This document shows positions 5,412-39,151 of a DNA stretch of 39,341 nt, one piece after another. Source of the stretch: a virus; IMG/VR virus record IMGVR_UViG_3300037674_001089, positions 1 to 39,341 of that record; one strand, given 5' to 3'. The stretch's first letter is position 1; each line of letters opens with the position of its first letter. The notes under the pieces were generated by a model. It was not told the origin of the DNA. It worked only from the letters and a program-made list of their open reading frames with translations, and made no database searches. A program made the translations under genes and the position numbers.

Positions 5412-6232
5412 AGGATGTTTAATCCCAGGAGTGCTTGAGGTGGGCAGACACCATTGCCGAGCAGTCGTAATGCTGGCGTACGGTGGGTGACCACCGAGGT
5501 TACGTGTCCTTCATCGAGTCCTTGTAGCCACTCAACGAACCTGGGGCTGAGACGGCCGTCGGTTAGAGCAGGCGGTGCTGGCCGTCCGATGGTGTGCTCC
5601 CATCGTCGTAAGGCTCGGTCATAAGCCGTGCCTCGACCGACAGGCTCTTGCCGTGGCCGTTGCTGTTGTTGTGTTGCAGTCTCTTCTCTTTGATCCAGTC
5701 GTGCCACCACTCGAGTGTCTTGTCGTCCCCCATGTCGTTCACTACTGGCGTCGGCAGCAGCGGCAACACAGAACCAGCGCGCTCTTCGATGAGGTGCATG
5801 GGCGTCGCTTGCTCGAACAACAGTCCATCTGATGTCGTCATACCCGTGGGAGGTAAGCGTGGCAATGACTTCTGGGCCTCCCCTAATAAGGATGCCTCCG
5901 ACGTTTTCCAGCACGACGAGTCGCGGTCGAATGTTGCCAATAATGTTCCCGATATGGGGGAAGATTGCTCGCTGGTCATGAGTACCTTTCAGTAGGCCCG
6001 CATTCGAATAGGGTTGGCAGGGGAAACCTGCAGTGATGATCTCAATGTCGTCAAGCTGATGCGAATTCAGCTGTCTCAGATCCCCTAGTGGTGAGGCGTC
6101 GGGCCATCTGGCCTCCATCACTTTGCAGGCGGCGCTGTCTGTCTCGGACCAGTGGGTGGTGGTGGCTCCAAAGAATTGTTCGACTGCTAGGTCGAGGCCA
6201 CCGTACCCTGAGCACAGGCTAAGGATCTTCAT
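5402..6232 (-). CDS. dcm: C5-cytosine DNA methyltransferase
   Basis: A 276-residue enzyme that transfers a methyl group from SAM to C5 of cytosine in DNA. Motif I LCSGYGGLDLA (6-16), motif IV GFPCQPYSNAG with catalytic Cys72, motif VI ENV (109-111), motif VIII HRRARWF (148-154) and motif X GNGVCPPQA (259-267) are all present and in order. It is short for the family, with a small target-recognition region (about 165-235). I chose ATG 6232 (MKILSLCSG), inside the end of the preceding gene, over a longer N terminus. No restriction enzyme is adjacent, so it is likely an orphan protecting the phage or altering expression. A second frame is open across its centre (see 5563-5979). Confidence 0.93.
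   Translation of the reverse strand: MKILSLCSGYGGLDLAVEQFFGATTTHWSETDSAACKVMEARWPDASPLGDLRQLNSHQLDDIEIITAGFPCQPYSNAGLLKGTHDQRAIFPHIGNIIGNIRPRLVVLENVGGILIRGGPEVIATLTSHGYDDIRWTVVRASDAHAPHRRARWFCVAAAADASSERHGGRQDTRVVARLDQREETATQQQQRPRQEPVGRGTAYDRALRRWEHTIGRPAPPALTDGRLSPRFVEWLQGLDEGHVTSVVTHRTPALRLLGNGVCPPQALLGLNILCG
5563..5979 (-). CDS. Overprinted ORF inside the methyltransferase gene
   Basis: A 138-residue open frame on the same strand as the methyltransferase but in another frame. It starts at ATG 5979 with an AAAGG ribosome-binding-like stretch 6 bases upstream. The product reads like a real protein: DRDSSCWKTSEASLL near residue 19, LPPTGMTTSDGLLFEQATP near 42, then LLPTPVVNDMG near 73. I recall similar CWKTSQ...SGMT...LLPTP proteins encoded beside or within C5 methyltransferase genes of other phages, which argues against a chance frame. 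Function unknown. The alternative is that the frame is open only because of the constraint from the methyltransferase frame. Confidence 0.5.
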   Translation of the reverse strand: MTSEQSSPISGTLLATFDRDSSCWKTSEASLLGEAQKSLPRLPPTGMTTSDGLLFEQATPMHLIEERAGSVLPLLPTPVVNDMGDDKTLEWWHDWIKEKRLQHNNSNGHGKSLSVEARLMTEPYDDGSTPSDGQHRLL

Positions 6233-7007
6233 CGTATTCGACCATACAGCCGCACCCGCCCCAATCAAACAGATCGAGTTGCGTGTCTTTCTCTTGGACT
6301 CGCTCTCGGAACTCGGTCATAGTCATTGGTCGAGTTGTCCCACCGCGGCGGTCCCGCAGTATCGCCACATCGGCTTCCAGGTAGTCTCGCAACGCTTGCT
6401 CTTCCAGTTCCCACACTCTGTACGTCTCAGGAATATTTTCAAGCGCCCACTTAAAATGGCCGTGCCCTGCCCTGACGCACAGCCCACCACAGTTGTTGTG
6501 CGGAGCACCGAGGTCGTACAGGTGGGGCTGCTCAATTCCGTACCTCGCTAACAACATGTCGGCGTCGGTTTTGTCGGTGACTGGTTCCCACAACAGCGGG
6601 AAGTCCACCTCATATGGTTCCCAATGTTTAGGTATGCGGTCGGCACGGTGCGCTTCGGTCCAATCAATCCCGAAGTACAGCACCGAGTCGTCAGGGTCAT
6701 AGTTCTCTCGCACATACTTCGCTGACGTTTCTTGCTTAAGGACGCGTGAGCAGATAGGGACTCGGTTGTTCCCTAGGAATCGTTCCTCTCGGAATACCTC
6801 CCAAATGTTTCGACCGTCGGCTACCTCTATGAGTGGGAGGTTGAGTGCTTCAGCCCCCTCACTGAGGAACCTGTACAGGTCTTCGTCCTCAGTTCTGGTG
6901 TCAGCAAACAAGAGGTCTATCTGATCCTCTGGGTACCGGTCCTGAACTTTCCATGCCGCTAGCCATGATGCTTTCCCCCCTGAGTACATCACTACGTGGG
7001 TTGTCAT
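6219..7007 (-). CDS. PAPS-reductase-like PP-loop ATP pyrophosphatase
   Basis: A 262-residue enzyme of the phosphoadenosine-phosphosulphate reductase / adenine nucleotide alpha-hydrolase family. The PP-loop SGGKAS is at residues 9-14, FADTRTEDEDLYRFL at 34-48 is the second family block, and RVPICSRVLK (82-91) matches the CC/C-type motif. Later cysteines (NNCGGLC and GGCGC) could bind zinc or an Fe-S cluster. Phage members are common, and the substrate is usually unknown; sulphur transfer to DNA or nucleosides is a possibility by analogy with DndC. Its 3' end overlaps the methyltransferase start, so the two are co-translated. The transcript may be leaderless (see the promoter at 7015-7020). Confidence 0.85.
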   Translation of the reverse strand: MTTHVVMYSGGKASWLAAWKVQDRYPEDQIDLLFADTRTEDEDLYRFLSEGAEALNLPLIEVADGRNIWEVFREERFLGNNRVPICSRVLKQETSAKYVRENYDPDDSVLYFGIDWTEAHRADRIPKHWEPYEVDFPLLWEPVTDKTDADMLLARYGIEQPHLYDLGAPHNNCGGLCVRAGHGHFKWALENIPETYRVWELEEQALRDYLEADVAILRDRRGGTTRPMTMTEFRERVQEKDTQLDLFDWGGCGCMVEYDEDP

Positions 7008-11422: not shown

Positions 11423-12420
11423 TGAGTGACGCGCCGGTACTTCTGGAGCGATCCGATATTGAGCAAAGCGTCCTCTCCCTGCGTTCTGCCAATAAAGAAA
11501 TCGATCAAACTCCGAAAGTGCCGGCGCGTTCTTTTAACCTGATCGATCCGACGAGCACAGCAGTCTCTTCATGGATCGATTACGCCACCAACCCTGAGGC
11601 CCGCTGGCTCACTGGATTCCATCGACTCGATGTAATGACCAGGGGCCTCGGGCGAGGTGAACTTGCATTGTTCATGGGGAGATCCCACATGGGAAAATCG
11701 CAGGTTGTATTCAACGCCTGCATCCACTCTCTTTTAAACGTGGAGGACGTTCGCATCATTCTGTTTAGCCCAGATGAGCCTCGCGAACTGATCGTCGCAA
11801 AGTTCTACTCGCTCATGTTTGGGCTCAACTCGATTGAGGTAGAGAAACGAATGCGTGAAGGTGACCCTGCTCTCGTTGCTCACCTGACCGAACTAGCAGA
11901 GCCAGGGAACTACCTCGACAAACTCTTGATCTATGACGGTTCGCCGTCGTTTCAAACGATGCATGATGTCGTCGTCGAAGCGGAAGACTACTGGCAGATG
12001 CCAGCGACGCTAACGGTCTGCGACTACCTCGAACTCTTCGGTGGCGCAGGCGCAGCTGACTCTCAAGGGGTGATCGCTAAAGCGCAGGGCATGAAAATAT
12101 TTGCTAAAGAGGCAGACATCCCTGTCGTACTCATCCACCAGCAGGGGAGATCGGGAACTGTCGGCGAATCCGCTGGCCTGTACTCCTCGCGTTTCGGTGG
12201 AGAACAAGAAGCTATCTTCGCTTACGAGGTGTACCGTCAGCGGGACCGTTCGGACTTGAGCGCAGCCGAACGTCGCTTTCATGAGAACTCGATCAACATC
12301 AACCTTGTGAAGAACAAGCGCGGCAACCTCCGAGGCGACCTCACCTACTATTTGGATCCTGAGTCTGGTCAGATCAGGGAGTACACCACAGATCTAGTCC
12401 CCGAAGCCGATGACTTCTGA
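11422..12420 (+). CDS. DnaB-like replicative helicase (RecA-fold ATPase)
   Basis: A 332-residue ATPase. The Walker A block is GRSHMGKS at 86-93, followed by a FSPDEP block (115-120). The Walker B equivalent is TLTVCDYLEL at 196-205, and VVLIHQQGR and NLVKNKRG are the later DnaB-like motifs. It lacks the large N-terminal DnaB domain, so it corresponds to the C-terminal ATPase part with a short leader. It should unwind DNA at the fork. The start is GTG 11422, overlapping the preceding stop. The following primase gene overlaps its end by eleven bases, so both are made together. Confidence 0.85.
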   Translation: MSDAPVLLERSDIEQSVLSLRSANKEIDQTPKVPARSFNLIDPTSTAVSSWIDYATNPEARWLTGFHRLDVMTRGLGRGELALFMGRSHMGKSQVVFNACIHSLLNVEDVRIILFSPDEPRELIVAKFYSLMFGLNSIEVEKRMREGDPALVAHLTELAEPGNYLDKLLIYDGSPSFQTMHDVVVEAEDYWQMPATLTVCDYLELFGGAGAADSQGVIAKAQGMKIFAKEADIPVVLIHQQGRSGTVGESAGLYSSRFGGEQEAIFAYEVYRQRDRSDLSAAERRFHENSININLVKNKRGNLRGDLTYYLDPESGQIREYTTDLVPEADDF

Positions 12421-13384
12421 ACTCGTTCAAAACTTTGCCGACCTCCATCAGGGAGGCGCAGTAGCTGACGCTGGCGATGAGTTTCGTCCACGTAAAGACC
12501 CTGATGGGAAACCAACTGCCCACGAAGGGCCAGCATATCTCGCTGCGATAGACGACCACCTATACGGGGATGAACCCCTCGGTGTGTACCCATTGATGTC
12601 CACCACTCCCCCCACCGTATGGTGGGGTGCAGTTGATTGGGACCTAGATAAAGATCGGGACTACCCCGAACACTCACTCATACATGCAGCGAACGTAACG
12701 AACGTCCTCGACATGTATGGAGTTACCTCTTTCACTGAGATCTCTCGCAGCAAAGGTGTCCACCTGTGGGTGTACGCCAAAGAACCAGTCTCAGCGAAGA
12801 CAATGCGGAACGCATTGATGGCTGCGTGCTCGGTGGTCAAGGCCCCAGTCGTTGAGGTCTATCCGAAACAGATAGCGCTATCTGGGAAAGGGTTCGGGAA
12901 CGGCATCCGTTTGCCCTACCCCAGGGTTGGGTTCCATGGGAAGCAAGTAGTGCGTCGAGGATCTTGGACCCTTAGCGTCGATGAGTTCGTTAAAGAAGCG
13001 ACAGCCCACCGCTACCCAGCGCCAGTCTTCGAGGAACTCGAAGATCTTGCCCCCAAGGTGGTGACCCCGTCACCGATACCTACCCGCCGTTTGTCGTGGG
13101 CGAAACGCCGACGAGTGGGTTCAGTCAGTCAAGAAATATTGGACCGTGGACCAGCCATGATTAACGGCAAAGTGGATCGTTCAAAATCGATGTTCACTCT
13201 CGCTGTGGGACTACTTGGCGCTGGATGGCCGCACGATGAGGTGATCCGAACTTTGTCTGACTGGGATGCACGCTTCGCTCGAAAGTTCTCTGACCGGCCC
13301 GACGCCGATCAGCGTTACGCTGAGATGGTCGCTGCTGCTGACCGTCGTTACCGAGCCGACCAAGGAGTTCTCCATGGAACCTGA
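12410..13384 (+). CDS. Archaeo-eukaryotic primase (TOTE-type PrimPol)
   Basis: A 324-residue primase. WWGAVDWDLD at about 71-80 supplies the catalytic Asp76-x-Asp78, SRSKGVHLWVY at 112-122 carries the catalytic-site His118, and VEVYPKQ with GFGNGIRLPYPR (148-172) is the third block characteristic of TOTE-conflict primases. The C-terminal part (about 220-324) looks like a primase-associated helical domain. It should make primers and may also polymerise. It overlaps the helicase gene and precedes RusA. No separate DNA polymerase is found in the window, so it may supply priming for the host polymerase. Confidence 0.85.
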   Translation: MTSELVQNFADLHQGGAVADAGDEFRPRKDPDGKPTAHEGPAYLAAIDDHLYGDEPLGVYPLMSTTPPTVWWGAVDWDLDKDRDYPEHSLIHAANVTNVLDMYGVTSFTEISRSKGVHLWVYAKEPVSAKTMRNALMAACSVVKAPVVEVYPKQIALSGKGFGNGIRLPYPRVGFHGKQVVRRGSWTLSVDEFVKEATAHRYPAPVFEELEDLAPKVVTPSPIPTRRLSWAKRRRVGSVSQEILDRGPAMINGKVDRSKSMFTLAVGLLGAGWPHDEVIRTLSDWDARFARKFSDRPDADQRYAEMVAAADRRYRADQGVLHGT

Positions 13385-33185: not shown

Positions 33186-35042
33186 TTACGATGCAGGAAG
33201 CGCCATTCCCATCTGATTTTGTAACTGCGCCACCAACTCAGGAGGTACGCCACCAGTCGGAGCGAACGCTTCACCTGGGGCTTCAGGTATAGGTGCCGGT
33301 GGAACACCAGCAGCATCAGGGCCTTCAACCATCGGCTGCTGCTGCATAATGAAACGCTCAGGATCAGAGATACCGAACCCAGATTGGAGTACATGTTTAG
33401 CAATTTCACCCGCATCGATCACAGTGCCCACCAAGGGGGCAACCGCATTCAAAAGCGAAACCGCTTGCTGTTTACGAATTGTGTCGTTCATCGGCTGAGT
33501 CGAACCAGCCTCAACATTAAAGTCGAACTCGCCAACAATCTCCTCACGACTATAAGCAATCCACGCATCCTGCCCATCAGGACCAACAATGCGAGCAAAA
33601 TCTTCACCAGTCATGTATTGCTGCAGTAGCTGGATGACTCGGCGAGCGATACTCCCAATAGAAAGTTCTATTGTTGCCAGTTTGTCCGCTGCCCGAGCAT
33701 TCTGGGCGTCAGCAATAATGGACGCTTCGGTCGCTGTACGCCGAGTCTCTGGTAGAGCTCCTCGCGCATATTCACTGATGCCTGAAACAGTGTTGATATC
33801 GTTCTCAATAATGGCTGAATAGTTATAGATCTCAGGTGGTACAGGCGTCTGCGGCATCGGTACCACAACCTCAGACAAAGGCCGGTTCTCATCAACGACA
33901 GGAACCAGACGGCCATCGTCATCAGACTCCAAAGCCTCGCGGCCAGCCCCATCAAACGAACGCTCATGGTACAGATACTTCCTTTGTCCACGCTTACGGT
34001 CATTCATCAACTGCGAGCGAGTCTTATCCAACTCGAGTTGCAAACTCTCAATACTTTCCAGATCACCCATCGGGTAGAAAGAATCAGGAACATCATAATT
34101 TCGAAGCATCACAAACGGCTGACCGTAGGCGTACGGCATGGGCGTAGGTTCCACAAGTTCCCCCACACCATTCTCAGCGAACACACATAACGTGTTATCA
34201 GTGATGTTGTAAAACTCCCAGACGGTTACAAGATCTTCCTGCTGCGTGTACTCGTCCGTTTCAAGACGCTGCGGAGGACCATCCCCATACATAACGAGAC
34301 TGCCACCATCAGGAGTAACCGACTTCCGCGCCGACGCCCTGTAACGCTTATCATTCTGCACCTCATCTAAGGTTCGAAGAACTCTTTGGCAGATCCACTG
34401 AGCGTCTTCCATGCAAGTCGCTTCAGGGTCAACAAATACATCGAACGGGGAGACACGTTCAACAAACGGCTGATCCTCGACTACAACCATCTCCGTATTC
34501 GGGAGATTAGCAATCACATCCTCATCCGAGGGAAGATCGCCAGCCATCTCAGGGTTCTCAACGGCGTACGCATCAAGTTCAGCGAACGCCCGATCAGCTG
34601 CCCCAACACGGGCAGACTCAGATACCGATGTTTCCTGTTCTTGGAAACGCCACCCAACCTTTATCCAGCCATGCCCAAAGATCAGAAAATCCTTGACAGA
34701 GCGCCTAAACGAATCCTGAAAATCGTGATGCTTCCACAAGTAGTTGACAATCGACTCAACGGTACTGGCCGCTGCCACATCCTCAGCACGATTCGCTGAC
34801 ACCACCACCTTCGGATGGTTCACCGAAACAGCAGGCCCCAGCACGTTGATAGTCGAAAAACTTAGATTGACCGCTATCAGATCTTGCTGATTAGACGTAG
34901 TCGCAGGCCAGTGCTTCCCCCGATACAGGTCGATCATGCGACGCCACAGATCGTCATACCCCTGGTCGGAACGCCACCGCCGCGCTCGAGTTAAACGCTC
35001 ACGGTACTTCTCTAATTTCTTGCTCTTCGACATTCGAGCCAT
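33186..35042 (-). CDS. Portal protein
   Basis: A 618-residue protein. An N-terminal basic part, then RRMIDLYRGKHWPATTSNQQ near 50-69, a portal hallmark in podoviruses, the clip/stem region (about 300-400) and a C-terminal helical barrel. LQLELDKTRSQLMNDRKRGQ (near 330) is a stem-helix type stretch. The portal is the dodecameric ring through which DNA is packaged and ejected. It overlaps the preceding small gene's stop. Confidence 0.85.
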   Translation of the reverse strand: MARMSKSKKLEKYRERLTRARRWRSDQGYDDLWRRMIDLYRGKHWPATTSNQQDLIAVNLSFSTINVLGPAVSVNHPKVVVSANRAEDVAAASTVESIVNYLWKHHDFQDSFRRSVKDFLIFGHGWIKVGWRFQEQETSVSESARVGAADRAFAELDAYAVENPEMAGDLPSDEDVIANLPNTEMVVVEDQPFVERVSPFDVFVDPEATCMEDAQWICQRVLRTLDEVQNDKRYRASARKSVTPDGGSLVMYGDGPPQRLETDEYTQQEDLVTVWEFYNITDNTLCVFAENGVGELVEPTPMPYAYGQPFVMLRNYDVPDSFYPMGDLESIESLQLELDKTRSQLMNDRKRGQRKYLYHERSFDGAGREALESDDDGRLVPVVDENRPLSEVVVPMPQTPVPPEIYNYSAIIENDINTVSGISEYARGALPETRRTATEASIIADAQNARAADKLATIELSIGSIARRVIQLLQQYMTGEDFARIVGPDGQDAWIAYSREEIVGEFDFNVEAGSTQPMNDTIRKQQAVSLLNAVAPLVGTVIDAGEIAKHVLQSGFGISDPERFIMQQQPMVEGPDAAGVPPAPIPEAPGEAFAPTGGVPPELVAQLQNQMGMALPAS

Positions 35043-35314
35043 CAGAACACCGCCCGCTCAGAAACCTTCTCGACGTTACGACCCGACGACATCACCTCAG
35101 CATGAATCTTTCGTTCACGCTCCACCTTCGTCAAACCCTGCTCATCTGCAGGCAAAATCGACTGCAACCCCTGACCGGTAGAAATCGTCACCGACTTCAA
35201 CCGTAGGCGCCGCTCGTAAAGTTCGCGAAGCTCCATCAAAGGAACCTGACCACGCCGTTTCAAAACGTAGTCAGTGAACTCCTCAAAGGTCGCCCCATCT
35301 GACAGGACGGCCAC
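35042..35314 (-). CDS. Small late hypothetical protein
   Basis: A 90-residue protein, basic, mostly helical (FEEFTDYVLKRRGQVPLMEL; ERERKIHAEVMSSG). Between portal and terminase genes; perhaps a packaging accessory. Its end meets the portal start (its stop overlaps the portal ATG). No family recognised. Confidence 0.65.
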   Translation of the reverse strand: MAVLSDGATFEEFTDYVLKRRGQVPLMELRELYERRLRLKSVTISTGQGLQSILPADEQGLTKVERERKIHAEVMSSGRNVEKVSERAVF

Positions 35315-35316
35315 GA

Positions 35317-35598
35317 TCAGCCAGCGTTATGGCCGCGAAGATTCGGTTGCTTGCCCGCAGGCTCAACCTTGCCAGTCGTCCCGTGCTGATTCTTGGGAGT
35401 ATCGCGGACAGTAGTTTCACCATACCCACCAGTCTGATTCGCATATTTAGGCGAGTCAGTACGTTGCCTAGGACTTTGTCCACCCCCAGGCGACCAGATC
35501 GGATTAGCTGAAACGCTAGAACCACGTTCCATTTTATTGTTTTTCCCCTTAGCCCCATCAACTGTGGAACCAGGAGTATGAGCGATGTTTCTTCCCAT
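35317..35598 (-). CDS. Small disordered late protein
   Basis: A 93-residue protein. I chose ATG 35598, with GAGG six bases upstream, over a longer frame inside the terminase gene. It is Gly/Asn/Lys-rich (GAKGKNNKMERG, GGGQSPRQRTD, GTTGKVEPAGKQPN), low in hydrophobics and probably unfolded. It may bind DNA or be a head component. Function unknown. Confidence 0.6.
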   Translation of the reverse strand: MGRNIAHTPGSTVDGAKGKNNKMERGSSVSANPIWSPGGGQSPRQRTDSPKYANQTGGYGETTVRDTPKNQHGTTGKVEPAGKQPNLRGHNAG

Positions 35599-35620
35599 CG
35601 ATAACCTCAAAAAGTAGGCG

Positions 35621-36304
35621 TCAATAGCCCTTGCGGGGTGTCCCACGCAACGTATTCCCACCGATCCGAGTCCCTGCAGCCGCCGGCACACCCGAAGCAA
35701 GACGGGCAAACCAGTTCACCGTCCAGTAATCATCTTCCTTCTCAACATATTCGGGCGCATGAGCGTACTTACGCATCTGATTCGCCAAAGCCAACGACAT
35801 CACACGGTCATCGTAAGGAGAACCAGACATCGAACCCCTCTCGTTACGCACAAACGTCCGCAACTCGGCAATCGTATGTTTGTCGTACAAGCAAATCTCG
35901 TCATTCCGCAACGCAGAACTCAATTCGTCAATCATCAACGGCTTAGAAGTACGAGTCGTCTTCCACCCATACTCCTGAGACACCCGATTCGACACCTGAT
36001 TCAACGCTCGACGGCGAAACAACCTCGGATACCCCAAATGCCGTAACTCAGTGATCGTCGTCAACCCGTGGTTGTTGGACTCCACACAACAAAGTGCGTC
36101 CATGTAATGCAAACCAACGGCGTACACCTCTTCGGCCAACAAATCAGGCGCAATGTGTCCATGCCAAATAGCAGACTGCTCCCCAGTCCCAACATCCAAC
36201 ACCTGAATCGCCGAATAATCGCCGTGAGCTAAACCCTCAGCAGTATCAACCCCCATCACGTAGGCATGACCAAGCTGTGGTGGCTCAAAAATCGTCATAC
36301 TCAT
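35621..36304 (-). CDS. terL: Terminase large subunit, nuclease part (split gene)
   Basis: A 227-residue protein with the RNase-H-like nuclease domain that normally forms the C-terminal part of the large terminase: GVDTAEGLAHGDYS (Asp20), CCVESNNHG (Glu75) and SPYDDRVMSLALA (Asp165/Asp166). This domain cuts concatemeric DNA during packaging. The gene is separate from the ATPase gene (36301-37185): its ATG overlaps the ATPase stop as ATGA, and GGAG eight bases before gives it its own ribosome binding site. So this terminase is made as two proteins which presumably join. No stop-free fusion exists in any frame. Confidence 0.85.
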   Translation of the reverse strand: MSMTIFEPPQLGHAYVMGVDTAEGLAHGDYSAIQVLDVGTGEQSAIWHGHIAPDLLAEEVYAVGLHYMDALCCVESNNHGLTTITELRHLGYPRLFRRRALNQVSNRVSQEYGWKTTRTSKPLMIDELSSALRNDEICLYDKHTIAELRTFVRNERGSMSGSPYDDRVMSLALANQMRKYAHAPEYVEKEDDYWTVNWFARLASGVPAAAGTRIGGNTLRGTPRKGY

Positions 36305-37185
36305 ACCCGAAACTCCACATGCTTACCGTTACGCCACATAAACCCCTGCTTGCCACGCTTCACACGCTTCGCCATATCATCCAAAACGTCTAAATCGAAA
36401 ACAGGGTTACCTGACTTAACAAACGCCTCCTCAGCGGTAGTCGGATACTCCTGAGCGAGTTGCCACGGCAACATCGAATCAACCTTCTCCGCATACCACG
36501 CCTCACCCCGATCCTCCACCGCAGACCACGGAAAAAACATTGGACTGAACTTATTCGCCCCAGTCGTAGCACCAACCCACAACTCATGAAAAAAGTTTCC
36601 CGAACCATTCGCCGTACTCAAACCAATAATACGGCCCCCAACATCAGCAACAGGCTCAATACTGGCCCACGCCTCCTCCGCATTAGGAAGAAACCCCCAC
36701 TCATCAACCACGATCAGAGTCGCAGATTCACCTCGAGCGGGATCAGACGCCGAAGGCATCGACGTAACCTGACTCCCATTCTCAAACTGCATTCTCTGCT
36801 GATGATCCACAAGCGACTTAGGGCCACGCGCCACCATCCACCTAGGCAAATGCTGAAAGCCATACTTCGTTTTACGCAACAACAAAACCGCTTCCCGCTC
36901 TGTACGACTCAAATCAATAATGTTCTGATCGTCATGAAAAAACGCCAACCAAAACTGGTGCGCCGCAACCAACGTCGTCCACCCAATCTGGCGAGCCTTA
37001 AGAGTCAACGAATAACGCGCAGAAGCCCACTCCCCCAAAGCATGCTCCTGCGAAGAACGCAAATCGAAAAGAATACGACCATGCGCTGGATGAGCGATAG
37101 ACCAGTAGTTACGCAAGAAGTAAGATTCATCACGTACACACTTACGCCACTCCACTTCCTTCCTCAAATCATCGAATCGAGACAT
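36301..37185 (-). CDS. terL: Terminase large subunit, ATPase part (split gene)
   Basis: A 294-residue ATPase, the motor half of the large terminase. The Walker A-like block LKARQIGWTT is at 62-71, Walker B is TLIVVDEWG at 156-164 (Asp161-Glu162), and the coupling motif GLSTANGSG is at 188-196. It ends shortly before the nuclease would begin, and the nuclease is the next gene. The combined length (294+227) fits a normal undivided terminase. I chose ATG 37185; a TTG at 37194 would add three residues. The ATG overlaps the start of the divergent 2OG oxygenase gene within one CATG. Confidence 0.88.
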   Translation of the reverse strand: MSRFDDLRKEVEWRKCVRDESYFLRNYWSIAHPAHGRILFDLRSSQEHALGEWASARYSLTLKARQIGWTTLVAAHQFWLAFFHDDQNIIDLSRTEREAVLLLRKTKYGFQHLPRWMVARGPKSLVDHQQRMQFENGSQVTSMPSASDPARGESATLIVVDEWGFLPNAEEAWASIEPVADVGGRIIGLSTANGSGNFFHELWVGATTGANKFSPMFFPWSAVEDRGEAWYAEKVDSMLPWQLAQEYPTTAEEAFVKSGNPVFDLDVLDDMAKRVKRGKQGFMWRNGKHVEFRV

Positions 37186-37792
37186 GCTTACCAACCACTA
37201 CTGGTACGTCCCAGAGGCATTAACCCAACAGCAATGCGACGACATCCAACACGCCGCAGCTGCAACCGAACAAATCGAGGGAATCCACTTCGGACATGAC
37301 GAAAACCATCGCGACTCCCAAGTCTCCTGGCTCTACGACCCCCACCTAACAGACCTAATCGCCGCACTGGTACGTCAAGCCAACACAGAAGCAGGATGGC
37401 GATACGACCTACAGGCCACAGAAGCCGTCCAGTACACCCGATACCACCCGCAAGGAAGATACCGTTGGCACATCGATGGGAACCAAGACCACCACGCCGC
37501 CCGCAAATTCACAACCCAAACCGAGCACCCAAACCCACTGACCTTCACACCCTTCCCCAAACTCCAAGGGCTCGTCCGCAAACTCTCGGCAACAGTCAAC
37601 CTAACAAACCCCGAAGACTACGAAGGCGGCGAACTACAGATCCGCTGCTACGACCAACTCCACACCTTCAACAACGCCCCCAGAGGATCAATGACCGTAT
37701 TCCCCAGTTTCATGGACCACCAAATAACACCCATCACCAAAGGCCAGCGACACAGCGCAGTGATGTGGTACAACGGCTACCCACTTCGTTAG
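37184..37792 (+). CDS. 2OG-Fe(II) oxygenase
   Basis: A 202-residue dioxygenase of the prolyl-4-hydroxylase/PKHD type. The iron ligands are His96 and Asp98 (WHIDGN) and His179 (FMDHQI), and Arg189 (KGQRHS) would bind 2-oxoglutarate. ATVNLTNPEDYEGGELQI (136-153) is the core beta strand pair. It hydroxylates an unknown target, protein or nucleobase. It is read against the surrounding late genes, between the terminase genes, so it is likely a moron gene under its own control. No promoter of its own is obvious. Its 5' end lies inside the terminase start region. Confidence 0.85.
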   Translation: MLTNHYWYVPEALTQQQCDDIQHAAAATEQIEGIHFGHDENHRDSQVSWLYDPHLTDLIAALVRQANTEAGWRYDLQATEAVQYTRYHPQGRYRWHIDGNQDHHAARKFTTQTEHPNPLTFTPFPKLQGLVRKLSATVNLTNPEDYEGGELQIRCYDQLHTFNNAPRGSMTVFPSFMDHQITPITKGQRHSAVMWYNGYPLR

Positions 37793-38251: not shown

Positions 38252-38404
38252 CTAAGTGCATGAATCACACACCTCATAACCATCAACCGAACACTCAATA
38301 GGAGCGTCATCATCAAACGGATCAACACCACGCTCCCCCATCAACTCAGGATGCTCCTCAAAAACCTCCACCAACGTCTTCGGATCCCCCAACTCAGTCC
38401 CCAT
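38252..38404 (-). CDS. 50-residue acidic protein
   Basis: A frame starting at ATG 38404 inside the end of terS (11-base overlap) and ending at 38252. Acidic, with a helix (DPKTLVEVFEEHPELMGERG) and a Cys-rich tail (CSVDGYEVCDSCT). It may be coupled to terS translation. Function unknown. Confidence 0.6.
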   Translation of the reverse strand: MGTELGDPKTLVEVFEEHPELMGERGVDPFDDDAPIECSVDGYEVCDSCT

Positions 38405-38843
38405 CCCGAAGAGCATCCAAAAGATCCTCCAACTCAGTAATCAACGCACCATCCGACAACGCCGAAGCCTCAGCCTCATCAACAATCACCTGACGCTTCG
38501 GAGTAAACCGATCCACATACTGCAAATACAAAGACGCAGCCTTCACATCCCCCTTCGCAGCCTCCCGATACACAGCATCAATCACCGTCTGCACACGCTC
38601 AACATGCACATTCAACTCAGCCGCCCTGGCCTCCCACTCCTTACGAAACCGCGGATCACGCTTCCACCGACGCAACGAATCCTCATGTACGTCATGATCA
38701 ACCGCCCAAGCCTTCTGCGTCTTCGGCTCACGCTCAGGCCCCAACAACAACCACTCCAAAAACTCGCGCCAATGATCAGGCATCACCTTCACACCAGAAT
38801 CAGGATCAGTCACCCAACCCTTACCGCCACCATTCTGAGGCAT
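38394..38843 (-). CDS. terS: Terminase small subunit
   Basis: A 149-residue protein. HWREFLEWLLLGPE and, later, VHEDSLRRWKRDPRFRKEW around 54-72 form a phBC6A51-type helix-turn-helix used in small terminases, then a helical part with VIDAVYREAAKGDVKAASLYLQYV that assembles the ring. It binds the packaging site and loads the large subunit. I chose ATG 38843, with GGAG six bases upstream, over a longer frame. First late gene, next to the non-coding region at 38844-39151. Confidence 0.85.
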   Translation of the reverse strand: MPQNGGGKGWVTDPDSGVKVMPDHWREFLEWLLLGPEREPKTQKAWAVDHDVHEDSLRRWKRDPRFRKEWEARAAELNVHVERVQTVIDAVYREAAKGDVKAASLYLQYVDRFTPKRQVIVDEAEASALSDGALITELEDLLDALRDGD

Positions 38844-39151
38844 CCAAAACTCCAATCGCTCAAAAACATGAGCACACCGTCCCACCAAAATAGCAATGGG
38901 ACACCCTGCAGTTTGTAACCAAACAGGGACAGCGCTAGAGCTAGCGCGATCAACTTAAAAACAAGTGGCGTACAGAGCTAGCTCACGACAGACAAACAAC
39001 AGCAACGACATCCGCTCGAATGGGCCAGCCAAGAAAAAAAGTAGTACGCACTGTCGATCCTTATCTATACACCCCGCCCGCCCGCCGGCCCGCCCCCCCT
39101 GGGGGGTGCCCTCGGGCAGGGGCAGCTGAAGCTGCGGGCGTGCGATTGGGT
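38844..39151. other. Non-coding region upstream of terS with inverted repeats
   Basis: I see no supportable gene. On the circle it joins 1-318. It holds an inverted repeat GTCCCA/TGGGAC (38879-38884 and 38897-38902), GTTTG/CAAAC (38911-38924), GCGCTAG/CTAGCGC around AG (38932-38947), the perfect palindrome GAGCTAGCTC (38975-38984), and the palindrome run at 39094-39164. Leftward promoters for the late operon should lie here, but I could not find a good -35/-10 pair. A packaging site is likely because terS is adjacent. Confidence 0.6.

Follow-up and report, generated by a model that had tools for sequence, protein, structure and literature searches.

The large terminase (TerL) of the virus sequence analysed here is encoded by two genes. 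In the window, that is, the whole stretch of 39,341 nucleotides corresponding to positions 1 to 39,341 of the IMG/VR virus record IMGVR_UViG_3300037674_001089, the locus is a two-gene variant of the T4 gp17-type large terminase and not a standard TerL. The ATPase open reading frame (ORF) runs on the minus strand from an ATG at 37185 to a TGA stop codon at 36303-36301, and the nuclease ORF, on the same strand, from an ATG at 36304-36302 to its end at 35621. The nuclease start codon thus overlaps the ATPase stop codon, and it is preceded by GGAG (36316-36313) at a spacing of 8 nt. A sequence-only reading had proposed this split, together with the ATGA overlap and the GGAG upstream of it, and all three were found in the sequence. 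We consider it likely that the arrangement reflects one ancient fission, translational coupling of the two genes and non-covalent reassembly of the two subunits in the motor. The split locus comprises the following features:

36301 to 37185, minus strand: TerL ATPase half, 294 amino acids, T4 gp17-type, ending at the hinge (ORF, Pfam, PDB, AlphaFold2).
35621 to 36304, minus strand: TerL nuclease half, 227 amino acids, RNase-H-like fold, with the triad D20/E75/D166 (ORF, Pfam, gp17, AlphaFold2).
36301 to 36304, minus strand: ATGA, the nuclease start codon overlapping the ATPase stop codon (sequence).
36313 to 36316, minus strand: Shine-Dalgarno-like GGAG of the nuclease gene, within the V-E codons of the ATPase gene (sequence).

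The identity of the two halves is supported by sequence as well as by fold, both of which match T4 gp17 and RB49 gp17. Firstly, the Pfam family Terminase_6N matches the ATPase half (E 1.7e-7) and Terminase_6C the nuclease half (E 5.7e-4, just under the cut-off), and PHROGs too place both halves as domains of a T4 gp17-type large terminase. Secondly, searches of PDB sequences returned T4 gp17 for the ATPase half (7e-28), and RB49 gp17 (2e-9) and T4 gp17 (9.5e-7) for the nuclease half. Thirdly, the AlphaFold2 model of the ATPase half (mean pLDDT 85.7) superimposes on residues 100-360 of T4 gp17 with a Z score of 27.0 and an rmsd of 2.5 over 249 aligned residues, and that of the nuclease half (mean pLDDT 84.8) on residues 382-562 with a Z score of 22.4 and an rmsd of 2.0 over 172 aligned residues. 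Since the halves align to these two segments, the chain break lies between gp17 residues 360 and 382, which is the hinge. In T4 gp17, the flexible hinge joins two domains of a single chain, whereas the chain of the window stops and restarts there; gp17-type TerL proteins are normally single polypeptides, and in the window and in all its clade relatives we found two ORFs instead.

When the halves are aligned with fused relatives, the first Met of the nuclease occupies the position of a loop residue immediately ahead of the strand LxVWxxP, and few residues have been gained or lost at the joint. AlphaFold2 predicted a beta strand at the C-terminus of the ATPase (residues 289-293) and another at the N-terminus of the nuclease (residues 2-5). 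Plausibly, the two could pair with each other where the loop used to be, as far as can be judged from single-chain models with a pLDDT of about 76-83 at the ATPase end.

The catalytic motifs of a large terminase are distributed over the two proteins, those of the ATPase half being the following:

36973 to 37002, minus strand: deviant Walker A LKARQIGWTT, residues 62-71, in which K63, R65 and G68 are invariant (alignment).
36700 to 36717, minus strand: Walker B and catalytic Glu, LIVVDE, residues 157-162 (alignments).
36607 to 36618, minus strand: coupling motif STAN, residues 190-193, in which S190, T191 and A192 are invariant (alignment).

The catalytic E162 is likewise invariant in the alignment, and the nuclease triad D20, E75 and D166, which corresponds to D401/E458/D542 of T4 gp17, is invariant or nearly so in a broad alignment. 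The ATPase half had been read as ending with its motifs complete. The motifs are indeed present, and Walker B and the coupling motif are shared with T4 gp17, but Walker A differs from that of gp17: it reads KARQIGWTT, with Trp at the position of the usual P-loop lysine. The fused relative MW202803 has Phe at this position, and the invariance of K63, R65 and G68 extends to the fused relatives. HK97 TerL requires an additional upstream lysine, K57, both for its ATPase activity and for packaging (PMC9410871); by analogy, the ATPase motor of the window is plausibly active despite its deviant Walker A. The invariant upstream Lys63 resembles this second, essential lysine of HK97.

How general the split is was examined with two IMG/VR scans, one per half, which yielded 159 loci plus the outgroup MW202803; since each half was used separately, the sampling was not biased to split forms. 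Nearly all of the 159 loci were readable in both halves. These relatives are 60-100% identical and come from uncultured phages, for the most part environmental ones. Together with the outgroup they provide 140 distinct junctions, one of which is that of the fused MW202803, while another, that of L131 (a frame break within the ATPase), was set aside. The remaining junctions are all split (138/138), always at the same place, and none is fused. The proposal that the window contains two separately translated genes is supported by about 138 distinct related junctions, among which an undivided close relative was sought and not found. In L131, an apparent frameshift at position 1732 breaks the ATPase ORF early, which is likely a sequencing error or a sign of a decayed copy.

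The form of the junction varies. A 4-nt ATGA/GTGA overlap is present at 90 junctions, an overlap of 7 nt at 20 and of 20 nt at another 20, a 1-nt overlap (TAATG/TGATG) at 4, and TAGATG at 1. The other 3 junctions carry an insert between the halves: a gene for a 280-aa PAPS-reductase-like protein in L093 (2153-3001) and L114 (2168-3001), and a short zinc-ribbon-like ORF of about 44 aa in L150 (2867-3004). All these inserts are joined to the halves via overlapping stop and start codons, and the split point thus tolerates gene gain. The window has a PAPS-reductase-like gene of its own elsewhere (6219-7007, minus strand; weak PF01507 match).

The surroundings of the two genes are those of a packaging module, with a portal gene and a weakly matching small-terminase (TerS)-like gene near the terminase:

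38394 to 38888, minus strand: small-terminase-like gene, the conserved upstream neighbour (weak PHROG terminase small subunit match, E 3e-4; synteny).
35042 to 35604, minus strand: two small ORFs, 35317-35604 and 35042-35314, between nuclease and portal (conserved in most relatives).
33186 to 35042, minus strand: portal gene, the conserved downstream neighbour (Pfam SU10_portal, 6e-26; synteny).

The conserved order is TerS-like gene, in some cases an antisense 2OG-Fe oxygenase gene, ATPase, nuclease, the two small ORFs and portal. Searches of Pfam and PHROGs gave no family match for the small ORF at 35317-35604. In the window, the ATG of the ATPase gene (minus strand) and that of the 2OG-Fe(II) oxygenase gene (plus strand, 37184-37792) overlap in CATG at 37183-37186, so that this divergent pair has zero intergenic space; an antisense relative of the oxygenase lies upstream of the ATPase gene in about 45 loci. 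The sequence distances of the ATPase correlate with those of the nuclease (Spearman 0.53; 0/2000 permutations), which indicates that the halves mostly travel together; with a mean distance of 0.30, against 0.21 for the ATPase, the nuclease is the faster-diverging of the two. As for the host, two contigs of metagenome-assembled genomes (MAGs) that carry the packaging module, L192 and L193, are labelled as a TMED189 actinobacterium and a SAT11 euryarchaeote, and these may be virus contigs binned by chance. The window also holds a GP88 gene, of a family that we take to lean to actinobacteria, and a primase gene (12410-13384, plus strand) with a match to the AEP-TOTE archaeo-eukaryotic primase domain, located beside a DnaB-like helicase gene. 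We found no tRNA or Rfam matches in the window.

Assembly of the two products for packaging, or else separate regulation of the nuclease, had been suggested from the sequence, and either may hold. Non-covalent reassembly of two translationally coupled products is the reading we favour. According to it, an ancestral single-chain TerL gene would have been broken once, early in the clade, at the loop between ATPase and nuclease. The upstream gene would now provide the ATPase motor; the ribosome would halt at the TGA and, aided by the GGAG, re-initiate at the overlapping ATG to produce the nuclease, so that both proteins would be made from one message in a coupled ratio. The subunits would then re-join non-covalently into the packaging motor at the portal, plausibly held together by pairing of the ATPase strand 289-293 with the nuclease strand 2-5 and by an interface like that between the two gp17 domains. 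In the T4 model, a flexible hinge connects engine and wheel, and the nuclease domain also holds the DNA translocation groove. According to reviews of T4, when gp17 was split at the linker, the ATPase and nuclease activities were kept and DNA translocation was completely lost (PMC3012670, PMC9958956). Because of that loss, a working two-piece motor needs compensating contacts, and the clade must either have acquired such contacts in place of the covalent hinge or divide the labour differently.

Such a different division of labour is what the most serious alternative proposes, namely that the halves form no lasting motor: the ATPase would package alone, and the nuclease, free or only transiently bound, would make just the initiation and termination cuts. 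The two genes can be 840 nt apart in relatives, the nuclease diverges faster, and in T4 the cleavage step can be separated from translocation, all of which would fit this possibility. Against it stand the translocation groove, which the nuclease domain also carries in the T4 model, and the fact that the genes have remained adjacent, overlapping and largely co-inherited. We therefore regard this alternative as unlikely, and infer that the halves reassemble into one motor.

The junction sequences also bear on how the nuclease is made. Programmed -1 frameshifting would yield a complete TerL chain, the short ATPase being only its by-product, and the two frames in the window do differ by -1 with an overlap of 4 nt. 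This frame change had been read as lacking a slippery sequence, and re-initiation had been preferred on that basis; the relatives point the same way. A canonical slippery heptamer within 15 codons of the junction was present at none of 132 distinct junctions, and the frame relation between the halves, which programmed frameshifting would keep fixed, is of three kinds (108, 23 and 1 junctions). At most junctions, the nuclease frame upstream of the start is open for just a few codons, and in L093, L114 and L150 entire ORFs lie between the halves. Moreover, the nuclease start codon (ATG at 98 and GTG at 34 of the 132 junctions) and the Shine-Dalgarno sequence are conserved, although frameshifting needs neither. 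Programmed frameshifting was rejected on these grounds, and we consider it highly improbable.

By contrast with the missing slippery site, overlapping stop and start codons and a Shine-Dalgarno sequence inside the upstream gene, as expected of a coupled gene pair, are both found. GGAG is present at 104 of the 132 junctions. The Glu codon that forms it is GAG in 117 of 120 relatives, where 72 would be expected from each gene's own Glu codons, these sequences being related and the counts hence not independent. GAG is also kept in 26 of the 29 genes in which it makes up <40% of the Glu codons elsewhere, and in 32 of 33 representatives thinned to <88% identity. Where it has been lost, in L016 and L030, AAGG stands upstream of TGATG instead. 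These codon counts indicate that GGAG is kept beyond the constraint on the protein and that the Shine-Dalgarno sequence is under selection. No sigma-70-like internal promoter ahead of the nuclease gene was found in 35000-37400, and promoters of other types are possible. Together, separate translation of the nuclease is well supported by comparison of the junctions, and expression probably occurs through translational coupling.

With regard to the origin of the split, a search with the fused TerL of MW202803 gave 30 further loci; none of these is a split form, and one of them, the fragment L164, ends at a contig edge before the joint. A maximum-likelihood tree was computed from 34 split and 20 fused sequences. 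A single branch (98/94, 98% of bootstrap trees) separates all split forms in it from the fused ones, and the split forms adjoin the fused MW202803 and L162, the outgroup branches being long and the order among the fused forms unsure. As the split forms make up one clade with the fused forms outside it, a single ancient fission is the simplest account, and one fission early in this phage clade is well supported by the sequence comparisons. Relatives at 45-60% identity, by which the break could be dated, did not turn up in the searches. The nearest fused relatives are the TerL (561 aa) of MW202803.1, Podoviridae sp. ct52p938, and the IMG/VR loci L162 and L163. These relatives are 54% identical in the ATPase and 45% in the nuclease, have a similar gene order and also lack the usual Walker A lysine (F); unlike in the window, their gene is a single fused ORF. 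For the nuclease half, the best database matches after MW202803 are terminases of Stx-type and Vibrio phages (about 36%), and for the ATPase half they are T4-like terminases from Flavobacterium and cyanophage sources; domain shuffling may have occurred in the history of TerL.

A group I intron, an intein or a homing endonuclease could split a gene whose single product is then restored by splicing, and terL genes split by introns or inteins have been published (PMC12363816, PMC3322345). At the window junction, however, there is no insert but a 4-nt overlap, with no ribozyme, intein or endonuclease between the halves; the window has no Rfam match; and the inserts of L093, L114 and L150 are PAPS-reductase-like or short zinc-ribbon-like, not endonucleases. 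Splicing was rejected accordingly, and there is very little chance that it applies, while an ancient endonuclease insertion, later lost, could have caused the original break. Finally, a sequencing or assembly indel in one real ORF could be suspected in the window, which comes from a single metagenomic viral record. This is so improbable as to be negligible and is out for the clade, because L003, a contig of 99% identity that stems from a separate data set, and about 138 junctions carry the same split at the same residue, and the nuclease Shine-Dalgarno sequence is under selection.

In actinobacteriophage annotation, the ATPase and the nuclease domain of terminases are labelled separately, and hence other cases of split TerL probably exist. 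A spread sample of 60 relatives of the nuclease, taken from the phages collection, contained no feature with a separate-nuclease-gene label. Among the papers examined we found no report of the split of this clade, the sole domain split found being that of Parabacteroides phage phiPDS1, a single isolate (PMC10773633). Its authors suspected the codon table or an assembly artefact behind the split (PMC10773633), which, unlike that of the window clade, comes without conservation or start-site evidence. Jug phages (PMC12363816) and Campylobacter phage IBB_35 (PMC3322345) resemble the window in having terL in more than one ORF, and RNA splicing of terL has been shown for the Jug phages (PMC12363816). 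In these phages an intervening sequence is present, whereas the window has none and its downstream half has its own start codon and Shine-Dalgarno sequence.

Few phage proteins are as conserved as TerL, which is commonly regarded as a single chain with two domains. An old and widespread natural two-chain TerL would make the need for covalent linkage directly testable, as the ATPase and the nuclease could be purified separately and mixed. It also calls for caution with gene callers and with phage taxonomy based on TerL, both of which may halve this clade or overlook it. We tentatively suggest that the motor of this whole phage clade may consist of a separate ATPase and a separate nuclease/translocation protein, that the covalent hinge, which seemed essential from the work on T4, may be dispensable, and that the nuclease may be exchanged or dosed independently of the motor.
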